This document shows, one piece after another, positions 2,814-10,797 of a DNA stretch of 64,000 bases. The notes below the pieces were generated by a model. It was not told the origin of the DNA. It saw nothing but the letters and a program-made list of their open reading frames with translations, and searched no databases. Made by a program: the position numbers and the translations under genes. Source of the DNA: Myxococcales bacterium (GTDB lineage: Bacteria; Myxococcota; UBA727; GCA-2721815); NCBI GenBank assembly GCA_002721815.1, contig PBLQ01000011.1:62001-126000 (forward strand), in the 5' to 3' direction. The first letter of the stretch is position 1; each line of letters starts with the position of its first letter.

Positions 2814-3917
2814 ATGACAGATCAAAAAGAATTGCTGGCAAAAACCATGCATGCGGCAAACCAAGCCGTTTTAAAACCCAAACTGACCAAACCAACGAAC
2901 GTTGCAATCATTGGTGCCACCGGAGTGGTCGGGAGAGAGACCTTGTCCATCCTGGAGGAGCGAAACTTCCCCGTGGGACAGCTTCGTCTGTTGGCATCCG
3001 AGCGCTCCGCAGGCGAAAAAATTGAATTTAACGGTGAAGACCACACCGTTGACATTCTAGATGAACAAGCGTTCCAAAATGTGGAAGTGGCGTTCTTTTG
3101 TGCGGGCGGCGGTATTTCTAAACAATTCGCACCCATTGCAGCCAAAGCGGGTGCCGTCTGTATCGACAAAAGTTCTTTTTTTAGAATGGATGAAGATGTC
3201 CCACTGGTGGTGCCAGAGGTAAACCCCCAAGACATCGCCGGATACACCCAAAAAGGTATCATCGCTTCTCCCAATTGTTCCACCATCCCACTCATGCAAG
3301 TGGTCAAACCGCTTCATGACGTTGTGGGCGTTAATCATGTGGTGGCAGCCACGTATCAGGCCGTTTCCGGGGCAGGTAAAAGCGGCATTGAAGAACTTGA
3401 AAAACAGGTCCGCGACCTTTTTAACATGCGTGAACTGGACACTTCAGTCTTTCAACAGCGCATTGCCTTTAATGCACTGCCCATGATTCCTGCCACCGAT
3501 GGGATGGAAGAAAACGGCAACACCAACGAAGAAAATAAAATGATTTCCGAGAGCCGGAAGATTCTTGGTCTGCCAGGGCTCAAGCTTTCCATAACGTGCG
3601 TCCGCATTCCTGTGTTCAACGGGCACAGCGAAGCCGTCCATTTGGGGCTCAATGAGTCCATCAGTGTTGATCGGGTTCGAGAACTTCTTTCTGCCGCTCC
3701 TGGCGTGGTGGTCATCGATAACCCAACAGAAGGTGGTTACCCTACCCCTGCCGATGCAGCAGGAGAGGACATGACCTTAGTGGGCCGTATTCGTTTAGAC
3801 ACCGGCTTCGATAATGGCATCGCATTGTGGTTCTCCAGTGACAATCTGCGTACGGGAGCAGCCTTGAATGCAGTGCGCATCGCTGAACTTCTTTGTTCGG
3901 AGCACCTTCACAAATGA
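2814..3917 (+). CDS. asd: Aspartate-semialdehyde dehydrogenase
   Basis: It makes aspartate semialdehyde from aspartyl phosphate with NADPH, feeding lysine/diaminopimelate, threonine and methionine synthesis. The dinucleotide-binding motif VAIIGATGVVG is near residues 30-40, the catalytic cysteine is in SPNCSTIP, and the substrate-binding segment includes RIPVFNGHS. The 367-residue reading has about 28 residues before the Rossmann strand, longer than many relatives. The ribosome binding site is weak and a later start (second Met, residue 12) is possible. It lies 12 bases after the lipoprotein gene, and its stop overlaps the next start (ATGA). Confidence 0.95.
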   Translation: MTDQKELLAKTMHAANQAVLKPKLTKPTNVAIIGATGVVGRETLSILEERNFPVGQLRLLASERSAGEKIEFNGEDHTVDILDEQAFQNVEVAFFCAGGGISKQFAPIAAKAGAVCIDKSSFFRMDEDVPLVVPEVNPQDIAGYTQKGIIASPNCSTIPLMQVVKPLHDVVGVNHVVAATYQAVSGAGKSGIEELEKQVRDLFNMRELDTSVFQQRIAFNALPMIPATDGMEENGNTNEENKMISESRKILGLPGLKLSITCVRIPVFNGHSEAVHLGLNESISVDRVRELLSAAPGVVVIDNPTEGGYPTPADAAGEDMTLVGRIRLDTGFDNGIALWFSSDNLRTGAALNAVRIAELLCSEHLHK

Positions 3918-5842
3918 AATTGATGACGTTTTTTATCCCAATGGCCTTGGTATGGGGTTTCTCCCAAACGGCCCAAGCTGAGTCCATCATCTCTCGTGAC
4001 CTCTCACAGTCATCCTTGAATCGGTCCAATTGCGAGGAGCCGGGCACCATCGTTGCCAACTGGTCCATCGCCACTTCCACCGCTTCTCTGTCCTACAACA
4101 TCCGTCTCGAAGCCAGGGACCACGCTAACGCAACCAACCCGTGTCCCATCGGCGCCGGCAGCTCAAACGTGGAGAACATTGACTCCGTGGACGTGACCAA
4201 TCTGTCATCTCAGGTCGATGTAACGTTCTCGATTTCCACCAATGATATTTTTGAAAGCGATGCCTGCGGTGACGTTGGTGCACGTGAAGCGCGGACCTTT
4301 TGTCTTTACGTCAGGGACCAAACCAATATTGATGTGGCCTCCGACGGGTTCAGCATTTCTTACGACACCGTTTTGCCCGAGGCACTCGAGGTAGGTGACA
4401 TTCAGCCTGGTGACGAAAAAATACAGTTCCAAGTGAGTGGCGGTGACCCCAACGGCAACAAGACACTTACCTATATCGTGGCCTACCGCTCCTGCGATAG
4501 CGAAGCGTCGGACGATACGGCCTCTACCCTCACCGATGCAGGTTTCACTTCAAGCGATGCGGGAATGATGCTCCTATCCGATGGCGGCCAAATTGCCATC
4601 GGTGGCGTTTTTTCGCCCGATGCGGGAGGTACTTTTGCGAACGCTGACGCGGGTGCCGTTAACTTTACGCCAGATGCAGGGAGCCACACCAGCGCAGGGT
4701 CTGATGCCGGTGCGACCGCCTCTGCAGGTTTCCCCATGACCGATGCGCGCGACGGCGGTACCGACCAGACAGCCAGCCTATGTGGTGCCGAGGGCGATTT
4801 CCTAACCATGTCCACCTTAAGCAGCACCATCACCATCTCCGACCTGAACAATGATGAACAGTACGAGTTCAAGGTCTACGCCGAAGATGACTTTGATAAT
4901 GTGGGCCCCTACTCCGACCTCTACACCAGTACCCCACTCAACGAAGTCTCGGTCATGGATATGTACGATGGTACGCCCAATCCGTGGGGATTCAATTGTC
5001 AACAAAGCCAACATTTGCCCCTTCCGTTGTTGGCCTTAGCGGCGTTTTTATCTCTTTTGAGGGTCAGAAAAAACAACCGTCTCCCCAAGGTACCTCTGTT
5101 GATTGTTTTAAGTATCTTTGTGGCCTTGCCCGTACAGGCTGATGTGGGGCAAACCAGTTTCTCTATGAGTGGGGGCCCCTACCTTCCAGCCATTGACAGT
5201 GAGACGGTAGACGGTGAAAGCATCTTTCCAATCTACGATTGTTTCTTCGACAACGAAACCCTCGGACTCATGCAACTGGACTTTGGTTACCGCGTCTTAG
5301 ATGGATTTGGAAACATTCAACTGGGTCTCGGTCTGGGCTACGCTCAAGCGCGGGGCACCGCTCAAACAGCCGATATTCTCACCACCGGCCAATGTGGAGA
5401 AAAGTCATCGGGCTCTGTGGCACTCCATTTGGTAGAGCTAAGGCCTTACGCCGCTTACTATTTGGACGCCATTTTACTGGAATGGGGCATCCCCATCGTC
5501 CCTTACGCCAAGCTAGGCGTTGCGTCCTTTTTGTACGGGTGGACCCACGACGGCGAACAAGACCGTTCGGGAGAGGCAGATGACAATTACGCCACTGGCG
5601 TCCGTCCAGCCATCGACTCTTCCGCTGGTTTTCTGTTGGCCCTTGATTGGCTTGAGCCCTCCGTGACTCGGCGTGCCCGTGCCAGTGGGACTTACGAGAA
5701 TGCGTATGCCCTTTTGGAAGTGGCCTATGTGTCCACCACCGAACCAGGCGTGCCTGGTCTCGTACTTTCTGCCACCGACCTGTATTTCGATACCCAACAG
5801 CCTTTAATGGTTCGGTTTGGGATTATGGTGGAGTATCCATGA
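3914..5842 (+). CDS. Fusion of a MYXO-CTERM-like surface protein and an outer-membrane beta-barrel protein
   Basis: The ATG at 3914 overlaps the asd stop (ATGA) and gives a normal signal peptide (MKLMTFFIPM, cut near AQA). The 642-residue product has two halves. The first carries a fibronectin-III-like region, split by a linker with six Asp-Ala-Gly and two Asp-Gly-Gly motifs (nt 4535-4760), and ends with Cys362, a hydrophobic helix (about 370-382) and a basic RVRKNNR tail, like a MYXO-CTERM sorting signal. The second begins with another signal-like stretch ending PVQA (about 391-407), followed by alternating glycine/aromatic strands typical of a small barrel. From memory the halves recall the neighbouring Myxococcus families MXAN_2561 and MXAN_2562. 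A TTG at 5057 could start the second half, but it has no ribosome site. Confidence 0.7.
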   Translation: MKLMTFFIPMALVWGFSQTAQAESIISRDLSQSSLNRSNCEEPGTIVANWSIATSTASLSYNIRLEARDHANATNPCPIGAGSSNVENIDSVDVTNLSSQVDVTFSISTNDIFESDACGDVGAREARTFCLYVRDQTNIDVASDGFSISYDTVLPEALEVGDIQPGDEKIQFQVSGGDPNGNKTLTYIVAYRSCDSEASDDTASTLTDAGFTSSDAGMMLLSDGGQIAIGGVFSPDAGGTFANADAGAVNFTPDAGSHTSAGSDAGATASAGFPMTDARDGGTDQTASLCGAEGDFLTMSTLSSTITISDLNNDEQYEFKVYAEDDFDNVGPYSDLYTSTPLNEVSVMDMYDGTPNPWGFNCQQSQHLPLPLLALAAFLSLLRVRKNNRLPKVPLLIVLSIFVALPVQADVGQTSFSMSGGPYLPAIDSETVDGESIFPIYDCFFDNETLGLMQLDFGYRVLDGFGNIQLGLGLGYAQARGTAQTADILTTGQCGEKSSGSVALHLVELRPYAAYYLDAILLEWGIPIVPYAKLGVASFLYGWTHDGEQDRSGEADDNYATGVRPAIDSSAGFLLALDWLEPSVTRRARASGTYENAYALLEVAYVSTTEPGVPGLVLSATDLYFDTQQPLMVRFGIMVEYP

Positions 5843-5924: not shown

Positions 5925-6875
5925 ATGCACACCCATGATACGGTACAGCCGACACCGGTGGTGCAACCCTCCAAGGGCTTGAGCCTTGCGTTGCTCTCGC
6001 TATTGATCGCGCTGGGCATTTACGCCGTGTTGGCCCAAACGATGGAACGCAACGATGTTCCCCAACAATCTTCTTATGTGGCGGCCAAAAGTAAAATACT
6101 CGAAATGGACTATACCCATGGACGAGATGCATTGGTGTTTTTGCCCGCTTGGACATTACGCCCTTTACAATCCATGGGCGACCTTGAACCCATTGGGAGT
6201 GACATGGTCACCCTACTGCCGCCGCTCCCTTACAAACGACTGTTTGTTGTGGAGGAGCCTGATGCGTCATCAGAAATGAAAAACCTGGAGACCATCTACG
6301 GACCACCCTCTCAAACGTGGTCCATTGATAATCTCAATCTTCACCTTTGGGACCTAGACCCACAAGGTAGCTTCGGGACCTTAGGGGCACACCTGGATGC
6401 TGCCCTCGTACAAATTAAAAGTCGTGCTGAAACGGTAGAGTGCCCATGGACCATCGACAAACATCAATGTGATGGTGAACCGAACTGGCAGCACGTCCAA
6501 CGAAAGTGGATGCGCACCACCCGCAACAGCACAGAAATGGTTTGGGCCCATCCTCCCGCTAAAAAAAGCGCTCTGCACATCCAGTTTCCACAACAACAAA
6601 AACGTGCCTTCCTGATCATTTATGGTGGCCACACCCGTTATGCGCTCAAACACCGTGCCGCGTCCGTCAAAATGGAAGTGAGGTTCAATAATAAAAAAAT
6701 CGCAGCTCTCACTTTTGGCAATGACTTTCCAATGGCCCTGCACAGCGTCGCCATCCCCGCTGAGTTGGCCCAGCAAGGCGACCTGACATTCAAAATTTCC
6801 AGCAAAAGTAACCGAAAGAACAATTTTGGATTTGACGCATTTTGGTCAGACCAAAATATGAGGGGCCTGCCATGA
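5925..6875 (+). CDS. Unknown protein with one N-terminal membrane anchor
   Basis: I choose the ATG at 5925 because CGGAGGA (5908-5913) lies upstream; an open frame back to 5817 lacks such a site. The 316 residues begin with a short polar segment, one membrane helix (about 18-35) and a long soluble domain, probably periplasmic. The C-terminal third has beta-strand-like alternation (ALHIQF, AFLIIYGG, VKMEVRFNNKKIAALTFG, LTFKISSK) that could be a carbohydrate-binding-like sandwich; this is weak inference. Its stop overlaps the glycosyltransferase start (ATGA), suggesting a shared job in glycan or surface assembly. No family is recognised. Confidence 0.65.
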   Translation: MHTHDTVQPTPVVQPSKGLSLALLSLLIALGIYAVLAQTMERNDVPQQSSYVAAKSKILEMDYTHGRDALVFLPAWTLRPLQSMGDLEPIGSDMVTLLPPLPYKRLFVVEEPDASSEMKNLETIYGPPSQTWSIDNLNLHLWDLDPQGSFGTLGAHLDAALVQIKSRAETVECPWTIDKHQCDGEPNWQHVQRKWMRTTRNSTEMVWAHPPAKKSALHIQFPQQQKRAFLIIYGGHTRYALKHRAASVKMEVRFNNKKIAALTFGNDFPMALHSVAIPAELAQQGDLTFKISSKSNRKNNFGFDAFWSDQNMRGLP

Positions 6876-8533
6876 CCGCCCCCGCTTCCACTTCGATCCT
6901 TCATCGCCCGTGGTTCTGCGCATTGTTACTTTTTTTGGGCACGGCCATCTTGGTCGGAATGACCAGTGGCGACATTGGCTTCACCCGCGATGAAGGCTAC
7001 TATTTCAAGGCGGGCCGGGACTACTTTGGTTGGTTTGCTGAACTTTGGCAGAACCTTCTCAACGGCAAATTCACACAATCATTCTCCAAGAGCGCTATCG
7101 ATCGTCATTGGTCCTATAACCACGAACATCCCGTTCTGGTGAAAACCATGTTTGCTTTGTCCTATGGAGTTTTAAAAGAATGGCTCGGAATTTTTAGCAC
7201 CGACAGCGAAGCCATGCGTTTTGTGGGTTGGATCTTTGGCGGTCTCACGGTGTCGATGACGTATCTGCTCGCACGAACCCTGGTGTCCAACGGGCTGGCC
7301 ATTTTGGCCGCACTTTTGTGGTTATTTATGCCTCGAACATTTTGGCACATGCATTTGGCCTGTTTTGACATTCCAATTATTTTTGGGCACGTCTGGCTCA
7401 TCTACGCCTATTTGCAAAGCCAACGGTCGCTCAAGCATGCCATTTGGGCGGGCGTGGTTTTTGGACTGGCCGCTGCAATCAAGCACAACGTCCTCTTCGT
7501 TCCATTCATCTTGGTGTTGCACTGGATGTTGGTCCAAGCCCGGTGGCCCAAATTTGAACAAGCCGGTCTTAAGTTGCCATCAATTCCGTTGGCGTTTTTC
7601 ACCATCGCCGTATTGGGCCCCATCGTCTTCGTTTTGCATTGGCCCTATTTGTGGCCAGACGTGATTAGCCGCATTGGCTGGTACTTCAACTTCCACCTGG
7701 ACCACGAGCATTACCCCATCCTCTATTTTGGAGAACTCCTGAGTGCACCACCTTTCCCGCGGCACTTCCCCTTTGTTATGTCAGCCGTGACCATTCCTTT
7801 GGTCACTTTGGGGCTGATTCTCCTATCGTTAGGAGCTGCAATCTATGCCCTCGTACGGCACTTTCCTCGTTTGCGACGAAACAATGACGTGCCGCTCCAA
7901 CATCCACACGCCGTTTTATTGTTGTTATTTCTGAATGCAGTCATGCCATTTTGGGTCATTGCCAATCCCGGCACGCCCATCTTCGGTGGCACCAAACATT
8001 GGATGAACGGCGTTCCATTTTTGTGCATCCTGGCCGTTTGGGTGCTGCAGGTCCTTTTCCATCAAATTCGAAATTCGAATCATTATAAAAAACTGCAAAC
8101 CGGGGTCATAGGTGCCTTGTTGGTTCCCGCTGCACTCTTAACTTTTCATTCCCATCCTTACGGTCTTTCTTCGTATAATGAGGTGATTGGCTTTGCCCGT
8201 GGCGCGGCCAACGCTGGATTCCAAAGAACTTTTTGGGGATATGAACCCCAAGAAAGCTGGGACATGATCAACCAGCGAACGCCCAAAAACAGCAAACTTC
8301 ATCTGGGGGATACCAATCAAGCATCGTACCGAACCTATAAGAAAGATAAAATCATCCGTAAGGATCTGCGCTACTCTGGTCGCGTGCAGAACTCTCATGC
8401 TGCTTCGGTACAACCACAGGGCGAGTTTAAAAAACAATGGGTGGATGTTTGGAACATGTGGAAGACCAGAAAACCTGCTGGCGTCGTCCATATTGATGGC
8501 GTGCCCTTATCAACCGTAAGCTTTAAACCATGA
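6872..8533 (+). CDS. GT39-like polytopic glycosyltransferase
   Basis: The 553-residue inner-membrane protein has about ten or more hydrophobic segments. The first external loop holds TRDEGYYF, matching the acidic catalytic-loop motif of the PMT/ArnT (GT39, GT-C fold) superfamily, and His-rich loops follow (YNHEHPVLVK, HLDHEHYP). Such enzymes move a sugar from a polyprenyl-phosphate donor to a protein or lipid; donor and acceptor here are unknown. The start at 6872 is set by the ATGA overlap with the upstream anchored protein, and its own stop overlaps the next start the same way. The soluble C-terminal 100 residues are unassigned. Confidence 0.8.
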   Translation: MTAPASTSILHRPWFCALLLFLGTAILVGMTSGDIGFTRDEGYYFKAGRDYFGWFAELWQNLLNGKFTQSFSKSAIDRHWSYNHEHPVLVKTMFALSYGVLKEWLGIFSTDSEAMRFVGWIFGGLTVSMTYLLARTLVSNGLAILAALLWLFMPRTFWHMHLACFDIPIIFGHVWLIYAYLQSQRSLKHAIWAGVVFGLAAAIKHNVLFVPFILVLHWMLVQARWPKFEQAGLKLPSIPLAFFTIAVLGPIVFVLHWPYLWPDVISRIGWYFNFHLDHEHYPILYFGELLSAPPFPRHFPFVMSAVTIPLVTLGLILLSLGAAIYALVRHFPRLRRNNDVPLQHPHAVLLLLFLNAVMPFWVIANPGTPIFGGTKHWMNGVPFLCILAVWVLQVLFHQIRNSNHYKKLQTGVIGALLVPAALLTFHSHPYGLSSYNEVIGFARGAANAGFQRTFWGYEPQESWDMINQRTPKNSKLHLGDTNQASYRTYKKDKIIRKDLRYSGRVQNSHAASVQPQGEFKKQWVDVWNMWKTRKPAGVVHIDGVPLSTVSFKP

Positions 8534-9057: not shown

Positions 9058-10797
9058 ATGGAACTGGGCCAGTTTGCGCCAGCCATCGACAAGCTACAGC
9101 CGTTACTCAATCAGGCCGATGATGAATCCCAAGACAAAGCTTTTCCTCTCATCTGTACGTGCTTTTTAGCACAGGGATACCAAGCGGCGGCTGAGACAAC
9201 CTTGTTGCGTTGGCGCGAACAATCCACTCAGCCAGAAATCCCCGATTCCATTGACGCATTCATTCGTAGCCCTATAGCAAAATATTACCTCGACCAAGAA
9301 AACCGAATCCGGGATGCTGGCTCCGGCTTACTTTTGGCAGGACGCTATCTCCTGAGCGCCCCCATTGAGTCCAACCCGTTTGGCGAGATTTGGAGTGGTT
9401 TTGACCGACTCACTGCCAAACATGTTCACATTCAAATCTTTGACGAAACCGTCCTTCAATCCGACAGCTTTGAAAAACTCATTCAAGAGGTCCAAGCCGT
9501 CCAAATGCAAAGTCCCATTGGGGCCATGCAAATTCACGATTTGAAGGCTAGTAATGGTTTCCTCGTCCTTCTCCCACCCAAGGGGCTCCCTCTGAAAAAA
9601 ATCGTTCTTCAATTCACCATGCGGGAATTGCGGCGTTACTTTTATCGGCTGCTCGATGTGATTGAACGGTTTCACGAGGGGGGTTGGCATCACACACAAC
9701 TCTATCCCGGAAATATTTTTTTGGGTTCACGACAGGTCGAAGTGCTGGGTTGGGGGTATCGACACCTAAAAAGCCAATTGCGTACCATGACCACGGGCCC
9801 GGACAGTCCATGGCGGTTCTGCGCGCCAGAGGTACTCAAGGCACGACCAGCAGATGCCCGAGCTGATATTTATACTTTGGCCGCACTGCTGCAATGGATC
9901 TTTGAAATGCACCAACTGACGGAGACTCAAATGGCCGCAGATTGGAATGCTTTCTTCGAATCCGAGCTCGCCGCCCATCCCGAAGATCGCAGTCCCAATA
10001 TTGAAGCGTTTCGTCAATCGATGCCACTTTGGCCTTTGTACTCGGCCCCCGAAGTGCAAGATAAAAAAAGCCCTTCCACGCAAAGCATCAAAAATATTCC
10101 AGCCGGTGTGGTGAGAAGCCTAGAATCCAACGCTGAATACAAACTATTCTCCGTCCCTCACGCTGAGCTGAGCAGAGAGGAGTGGGTCGTTGAAACCACG
10201 CGTTCCGATATTCTGGAACGGCTTCTGCCATGGTCAACCATTCGCAGAGGGGCCCAAGAAGTATTCCGTTGGCAGACAGATGCGAATCAAGTTTACATTT
10301 CACCCAGCACTGACGCGCATTTAGACCTCTCATCTTTACGCCATTTTCCCTACAGCCTCACCCGAGACTTGGCAGCGGTGGCAGATGCACTGCAAACCCT
10401 ACACAGTGCAGGCTTGGGCATGGGATTTTTCGGCGTGGAGCGCGGCTTAGGAAACTATGGTCCCCAATTGCAACTGGTACCTGGGTCCCTACCCAGCAAT
10501 ATCACCCCCACCTTGCGCGCTGAGGACTTGGAGGCTTTTGTACAACTCGTTCAGTTTTGTTTTGACCTGAATACAGAAAGTCCAAACAACATCTGGGAGG
10601 AACTCTTACATCACCTGCGTCAGGATAAAGCACTGAGTCAGCAACAAACGGACACCTATCTACAACTGGCCCCTCATCAGCTTACCGAATGGCGTGACGC
10701 CCTCGATCAACTCTCTCATGGGCTGAAGCAAAAAAGGCCTCAACACGTGCTGGCACAGATCGCAGCCGATTTAAAAGCGGGGAATGCGTCGCCATGA
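9058..10797 (+). CDS. Tandem pseudokinase part of the same locus
   Basis: This is the downstream part of the 8530-10797 frame. The ATG at 9058 has no ribosome site, so independent translation is doubtful. The 579 residues start with a TPR segment, then a Ser/Thr-kinase-like fold (about 95-285). The usual VAIK Lys is Gln126, the HRD Asp is Gln214 (HTQLYPGN, with Asn219 kept), and DFG is GWG (231-233). APE (CAPEVL) and the following helix (ADIYTLAALLQW) remain. Catalysis is therefore unlikely. Residues 410-500 resemble a second, more decayed kinase C-lobe (VADALQTLHSAGLGMGF). It is probably a cytoplasmic scaffold; partner unknown. Its end overlaps thiL (ATGA). Confidence 0.75.
   Translation: MELGQFAPAIDKLQPLLNQADDESQDKAFPLICTCFLAQGYQAAAETTLLRWREQSTQPEIPDSIDAFIRSPIAKYYLDQENRIRDAGSGLLLAGRYLLSAPIESNPFGEIWSGFDRLTAKHVHIQIFDETVLQSDSFEKLIQEVQAVQMQSPIGAMQIHDLKASNGFLVLLPPKGLPLKKIVLQFTMRELRRYFYRLLDVIERFHEGGWHHTQLYPGNIFLGSRQVEVLGWGYRHLKSQLRTMTTGPDSPWRFCAPEVLKARPADARADIYTLAALLQWIFEMHQLTETQMAADWNAFFESELAAHPEDRSPNIEAFRQSMPLWPLYSAPEVQDKKSPSTQSIKNIPAGVVRSLESNAEYKLFSVPHAELSREEWVVETTRSDILERLLPWSTIRRGAQEVFRWQTDANQVYISPSTDAHLDLSSLRHFPYSLTRDLAAVADALQTLHSAGLGMGFFGVERGLGNYGPQLQLVPGSLPSNITPTLRAEDLEAFVQLVQFCFDLNTESPNNIWEELLHHLRQDKALSQQQTDTYLQLAPHQLTEWRDALDQLSHGLKQKRPQHVLAQIAADLKAGNASP

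Follow-up and report, generated by a model that had tools for sequence, protein, structure and literature searches.

Layout of the fused gene and its product

Does a reading frame that joins a predicted surface protein to an outer-membrane barrel represent a genuine fusion of two genes and, if so, does its product remain one chain or mature into two proteins? The question is raised by a gene on the forward strand (3914..5842) of the window, i.e. the whole 64,000-nucleotide stretch of DNA that was analyzed (contig PBLQ01000011.1, positions 62,001 to 126,000). The first-pass annotation had described this gene as a single frame holding a signal peptide, an FN3-like domain, a Cys362-helix-basic end, a second signal and a barrel, and this description held, with the frame open over 642 residues. 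The families MXAN_2561 and MXAN_2562, which the annotation had named, were recovered by a profile search conducted half by half, the barrel half scoring above the family cut-off and the N half below it. MXAN_2562_fam (NF040596) matched residues 415-621 with 102.5 bits in the whole protein and 105.4 bits when the half was searched alone (cut-off 100), and MXAN_2561_fam (NF045522, an equivalog model) matched the N half with 39.9-41.5 bits, below the cut-off of 150; the N half is thus homologous to this family without being a filed member. Among the 39 fused proteins considered below, 37 match MXAN_2561_fam at E <= 0.01; ten were also scanned singly, and all of these stay below 150 bits.

The fused gene follows asd (2814..3917, forward strand), which encodes aspartate-semialdehyde dehydrogenase and is the first gene of the conserved order asd-2561-2562; the two genes overlap by 4 nt, the ATGA at 3914..3917 containing both the start of the fused gene and the stop of asd. 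All features of the product are likewise encoded on the forward strand. The first signal peptide comprises residues 1-22 (3914..3979; MKLMTFFIPMALVWGFSQTAQA, with the predicted cut before E). It is followed by beta-sandwich region 1 (residues 26-151, 3989..4366), delineated from AlphaFold2 strands and Foldseek matches to FN3/Ig tandems, and by FN3-like domain 2 (residues 159-193 and 297-339, 4388..4930), which is supported by Pfam, NCBIfam and AlphaFold2, the Pfam fn3 match being weak (residues 298-325, 20.9 bits against a cut-off of 25). This domain is interrupted by a low-complexity insert rich in Asp, Ala and Gly (residues ~195-296, 4496-4801). In two relatives of family f4 (L070 and L071), the site of the insert is filled by Glu-Gly repeats (EGEGEG); the insert seems to be a tolerated spacer of varying composition. 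Next come the MYXO-CTERM-like sorting signal (residues 359-392, 4988..5089), consisting of Cys362, a hydrophobic helix (363-382) and the basic tail RVRKNNRLPK (383-392), and the predicted second signal peptide (residues 383-409, 5060..5140), in which the same basic tail forms the n-region, residues 393-405 form the h-region and the cleavage motif reads V-Q-A409 before D410. The remainder of the protein (residues 410-642, 5141..5839) is an eight-stranded outer-membrane beta-barrel of the MXAN_2562 family, assigned from NCBIfam, AlphaFold2 and Foldseek.

The AlphaFold2 model of the full protein, built from the 39 aligned fused sequences (pLDDT 79.6, pTM 0.70), contains two successive helices at residues 370-386 and 393-403 and places all eight barrel strands within residues 414-641; a Foldseek search with this model retrieved FN3 and Ig tandems. 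When modelled alone, the barrel reached a pLDDT of 94.7 and a pTM of 0.88 and resembled the barrels of OmpA, OmpX, OmpW, NspA and Ail in Foldseek. A sequence search of the PDB with the barrel yielded no convincing relative, and Pfam detected no OmpA domain in the window protein. Rfam had no match in the window, and sites resembling promoters or terminators did not stand out clearly from shuffled sequences. Elsewhere in the window, a frame with a Pkinase match (9058-10797; Pfam, 38 bits) has a mannosyltransferase-like membrane protein (6872-8533) encoded upstream of it.

Fused and split loci in Myxococcota

Of 195 genomes from the phylum, 180 had a match to the MXAN_2562 family, which exceeded the cut-off in 170; 14 control genomes yielded no match. 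We classified 85 loci, namely the window and 84 relatives, by the DNA surrounding the barrel; most of these loci come from draft assemblies. The call of fused or split was made from the frame upstream of the barrel and not from the length of the open frame. Open-frame length was rejected as a criterion for fusion because long frames arise by chance in GC-rich DNA, as exemplified by the stop-to-stop frames of 949-977 aa in family f18.

By this classification, the genes are fused in frame in 39 of the 85 loci and split in 46. Comparison of the junction in related genomes shows that the fused loci include all 12 sampled from the order to which the window belongs and extend to many other families. 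The split loci agree with the first-pass annotation, which had described the two families as separate neighbours in Myxococcus: a MXAN_2561-like gene lies directly upstream of the barrel gene in nearly all 46. This upstream gene ends in MYXO-CTERM or, in some loci (e.g. L084), in a CFI-box-type end. Directly ahead of the pair, most loci of either state have asd or an asd-like gene, which indicates that the genes and their location correspond between the two states. The order asd, 2561, 2562 is present in the window; it was observed here and lies outside the curated MXAN_2561 definition. In the split pairs, the upstream stop overlaps the barrel start by 4 nt (33/46) or by 1 nt (6/46). Because of these overlaps, comparable to the 4-base overlap of traA and traB, coupled production of the two proteins appears to predate or parallel the fusion.

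In a maximum-likelihood tree of the 85 barrels, the order of the window forms one wholly fused clade (support 100/97), and at least five changes between the fused and split states are found (starred branches), with nine counted by parsimony; the tree is unrooted, so that these changes can be read as fusions or as fissions alike. The window protein used alone as a query against genome contigs found nothing, and a query built from three close members matched three metagenome assemblies of the same order.

The refuting case contemplated in the first-pass annotation was a stop between the halves in relatives combined with a read error here, that is, a stop between two genes that was lost through sequencing or assembly. 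The window does come from a draft assembly of 74 contigs, and one fused locus, L130, could be such a case, its congener L129 being split. The same fusion, however, recurs in 39 loci from many families, the start and the SD sequence have been lost, and the joint is under purifying selection (see below), so that an error has a negligible probability as an account of the window gene and was rejected for the class. Thus, the fusion is genuine, conserved and old.

Several individual loci merit comment. In genus g86, which contains L129 and L130, the joint of the latter carries AGGAGG followed by an ATG out of the barrel frame; L130 may have fused recently or may owe its joint to a frameshift in the assembly. 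L074 (genome G050) is the sole split locus among the eight sampled from family f8; its upstream frame extends 47 nt beyond the apparent barrel start, which has just one start codon, a GTG lacking an SD, and its split may reflect an assembly error instead of a true split. Among the asd and asd-like genes of loci L061-L144, the copies in family f13 are ~23-35% identical to that of the window, and those in most other families roughly 40-60%; judging by this divergence, the f13 copies may be diverged or non-catalytic paralogues.

Conservation of the joint

The second signal peptide carries a signal peptidase motif [AVSGTL]xA in 38 of 39 fused proteins and 44 of 46 split ones. The stricter AxA is present in 31 of 39 fused proteins, compared with a mean of 12.2 and a maximum of 20 in 1000 shuffles, and in 3 of 39 at the sorting helix, which served as a control. 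Aligning the 39 fused proteins gives eight invariant columns, among them the −1 alanine (A409) and Cys362. Because the motif has been kept instead of decaying, the joint does not appear to be a mere linker or membrane anchor. Across six species of one genus, dN/dS between the Cys and the AxA was ~0.40, lower than in the N half (0.56) and higher than in the barrel (0.29), indicating that the joint is translated and constrained.

These observations bear on whether the product is a single uncut chain that acts as a tethered surface protein and barrel at once. The frame is indeed open, and conserved so across an order. Such a chain, however, is at odds with a motif that is kept far above both the shuffle and the control-helix levels, and its geometry is awkward: in the AlphaFold2 model, the second helix ends at residue 403 and strand 1 starts at 414, leaving ~10 residues between them. 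Judging from the known width of the periplasm, ~10 residues are too few to span it, so that, as modelled, an uncut chain could not place its helices in the inner membrane and its barrel in the outer membrane, and the surface half would have to cross the outer membrane while still tethered. We therefore regard an uncut chain as highly improbable.

A different possibility is that ribosomes also start within the gene, shortly ahead of the second signal peptide, making the barrel a separate translation product. The barrel of the split relatives has its own start, in most cases with an SD-like sequence, and the window itself has in-frame TTG codons at the joint, ahead of the second signal peptide, as well as one TTG inside it that is accompanied by an SD-like sequence, so that weak initiation could occur here. 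Against this, an ATG or GTG with an SD-like sequence before the barrel is found in only 3 of 39 fused genes vs. 40 of 46 split ones, and in seven of the 39 fused genes the 45 codons upstream of the hydrophobic core contain neither ATG nor GTG nor TTG. The loss of the separate start and SD from most fused genes argues that the barrel is not still started on its own, and internal initiation accordingly seems improbable, if somewhat less so than an uncut chain.

The first-pass annotation had left the choice between a product cut in two and one made as a single chain; with the cleavage motif kept and the start and ribosome-binding site mostly gone, synthesis as one chain followed by predicted cutting is favoured. 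The second hydrophobic core comes straight after the basic tail of the sorting tag, as read from the sequences, so that the tail could provide the second signal peptide with its n-region.

The sorting tag and myxosortase

The tag of the window protein has the Cys-helix-basic pattern and lacks the GC signature, and it was not matched by the MYXO-CTERM model TIGR03901 at E <= 10; a scan of its own genome likewise gave no match to it. The annotation of this end as MYXO-CTERM-like thus stands as regards the Cys362-helix-basic pattern; the tag is divergent and is not recognised by the model. Its basic tail would lie on the cytoplasmic side. The genome that contains the window encodes 19 MYXO-CTERM tags over the cut-off, and in the readable ones only a few residues separate the tag from the stop; the window tag is not C-terminal, being followed by 250 more residues, and an internal tag is therefore unusual in this genome.

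The contig of the window also carries, upstream of it, a myxosortase-family gene (Mrt_core, 101.8-104.8 bits, cut-off 100; 131.4 bits against the MrtC model, below its cut-off of 195). A myxosortase-core match was detected in 54 of 58 relatives, including every fusion-bearing member of the order, with a weak match in G005. Two very small genomes of this order, G009 and G012 (0.5 and 0.3 Mb), are without the barrel and without a myxosortase match.

Given that the window tag lacks the GC signature and has no TIGR03901 match, myxosortase may not act on the window protein. Signal peptidase I alone might then cut the chain, with the N half persisting as a periplasmic inner-membrane protein that is anchored by a hairpin and not sorted to the surface. 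The divergence of the tag is compatible with such an outcome; the invariance of Cys362, which extends to the alignment of 13 fused proteins from the order of the window, the clear GC-helix-RRR tags in many fused relatives (in families f24, f26 and f31) and the presence of a myxosortase-family protease in the genome speak against it. We consider a periplasmic N half unlikely, while giving it appreciable weight.

The surface half does not end in the same way in all fused proteins, and 15 of the 39 have a CFI-box match. In several families (L072-L080, L083, L085-L088 and L135-L137), it closes with a domain of the CFI-box type plus one more helix, without MYXO-CTERM, and the second signal peptide and barrel still come next. 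Genome G047, which carries a fused locus of the CFI-box type, had no myxosortase-core match. No account of the CFI-box was found in the literature searched.

Proposed maturation of the precursor

Taken together, we consider it likely that the gene encodes one precursor from which signal peptidase I and myxosortase release two partner proteins; its topology, each of the two cuts and the pairing of the products are what we infer from the features described above. The first signal peptide would route the FN3-like half via Sec until the Cys362 helix halted in the inner membrane, leaving the basic tail in the cytoplasm. Doubling as an n-region, this tail would allow the second signal peptide to re-enter the membrane as a hairpin and export the barrel. 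Signal peptidase I would then cleave after Ala409, releasing the barrel, which BAM would insert into the outer membrane, and the remaining N half would end in a membrane-anchored sorting tag plus the leftover hairpin. Myxosortase would process this half at Cys362, leading to a lipid anchor and transfer to the surface; in the CFI-box forms, the surface half would be matured by another enzyme. A covalent precursor of this kind would supply both partners at a 1:1 ratio.

That the two genes have been joined again and again argues strongly, by association, for a joint action of the MXAN_2561 and MXAN_2562 products. On balance, and with greater reserve than for the window protein itself, we lean towards a polyprotein system spread throughout the phylum, in which a coupled pair has been repeatedly fused, a mid-chain tag shares its tail with a second signal peptide, and two proteases deliver the products 1:1. 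If this reading is true, these genes offer a natural, conserved case of a bacterial precursor whose cutting yields both a surface protein and an outer-membrane barrel, and C-terminal sorting tags can work mid-chain. The pairing also makes the function of the uncharacterised products testable in Myxococcus xanthus, where they are encoded by two genes.

Comparison with known systems

Both families, the tag, the protease and one protein with an internal tag are already known. In the literature searched, we found no paper naming the MXAN_2561 or MXAN_2562 loci and no published account of this pair as a fusion or of its joint. The NCBI barrel model is typed as a domain, and its curators may have met longer proteins that contain the barrel. 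The closest counterpart is the split MXAN_2561/MXAN_2562 pair itself (NF045522/NF040596), in which both halves are homologous to those of the window protein and share their arrangement, mostly with asd or an asd-like gene ahead of them; the difference is that the pair consists of two overlapping genes and the window of one frame.

Precursors that yield two cooperating membrane proteins through a signal peptidase cut in one chain have a precedent in the cytochrome b/c1 precursor FbcH of Bradyrhizobium. Unlike the window protein, FbcH gives rise to respiratory proteins and has neither a sorting tag nor an outer-membrane barrel. A weak match to midcut-by-XrtH (NF033207; 16.6 bits, cut-off 45) spans exactly the joint of L082, one of the fused relatives (residues 324-367). 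Judged by the family name, the likeness lies in a sorting cut in mid-protein and the difference in the protease, an exosortase, hinting at exosortase systems with an equivalent mid-protein arrangement.

The tag-cleaving protease MrtX provides the enzymatic background, as it cleaves MYXO-CTERM tags (Guo, Haft and Wall 2025, PMC11980579). The same study describes internal MYXO-CTERM tags as rare and reports one in Myxococcus xanthus MXAN_5598, where the tag precedes an outer-membrane barrel and an OmpA domain; the authors propose gene fusion and processing, and liken the protein to a combined TraA/TraB architecture (PMC11980579). Like the window protein, MXAN_5598 combines an adhesin-like part, an internal MYXO-CTERM and a barrel in one chain. 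It is, however, one isolated case and has an OmpA domain in addition, whereas the fusion analyzed here belongs to a different family, occurs in many lineages and has a conserved second signal peptide at the joint. The traA and traB genes overlap by 4 bases (PMC3325183), and they resemble the split 2561/2562 pairs both in this overlap and in placing a MYXO-CTERM surface protein upstream of an envelope partner. The domains of this kin-recognition receptor and its partner (PA14, Cys-rich repeats, OmpA-like) are unrelated to those of the window protein; by analogy with TraA and TraB, the two products of the fused gene probably act as a pair at the cell surface.
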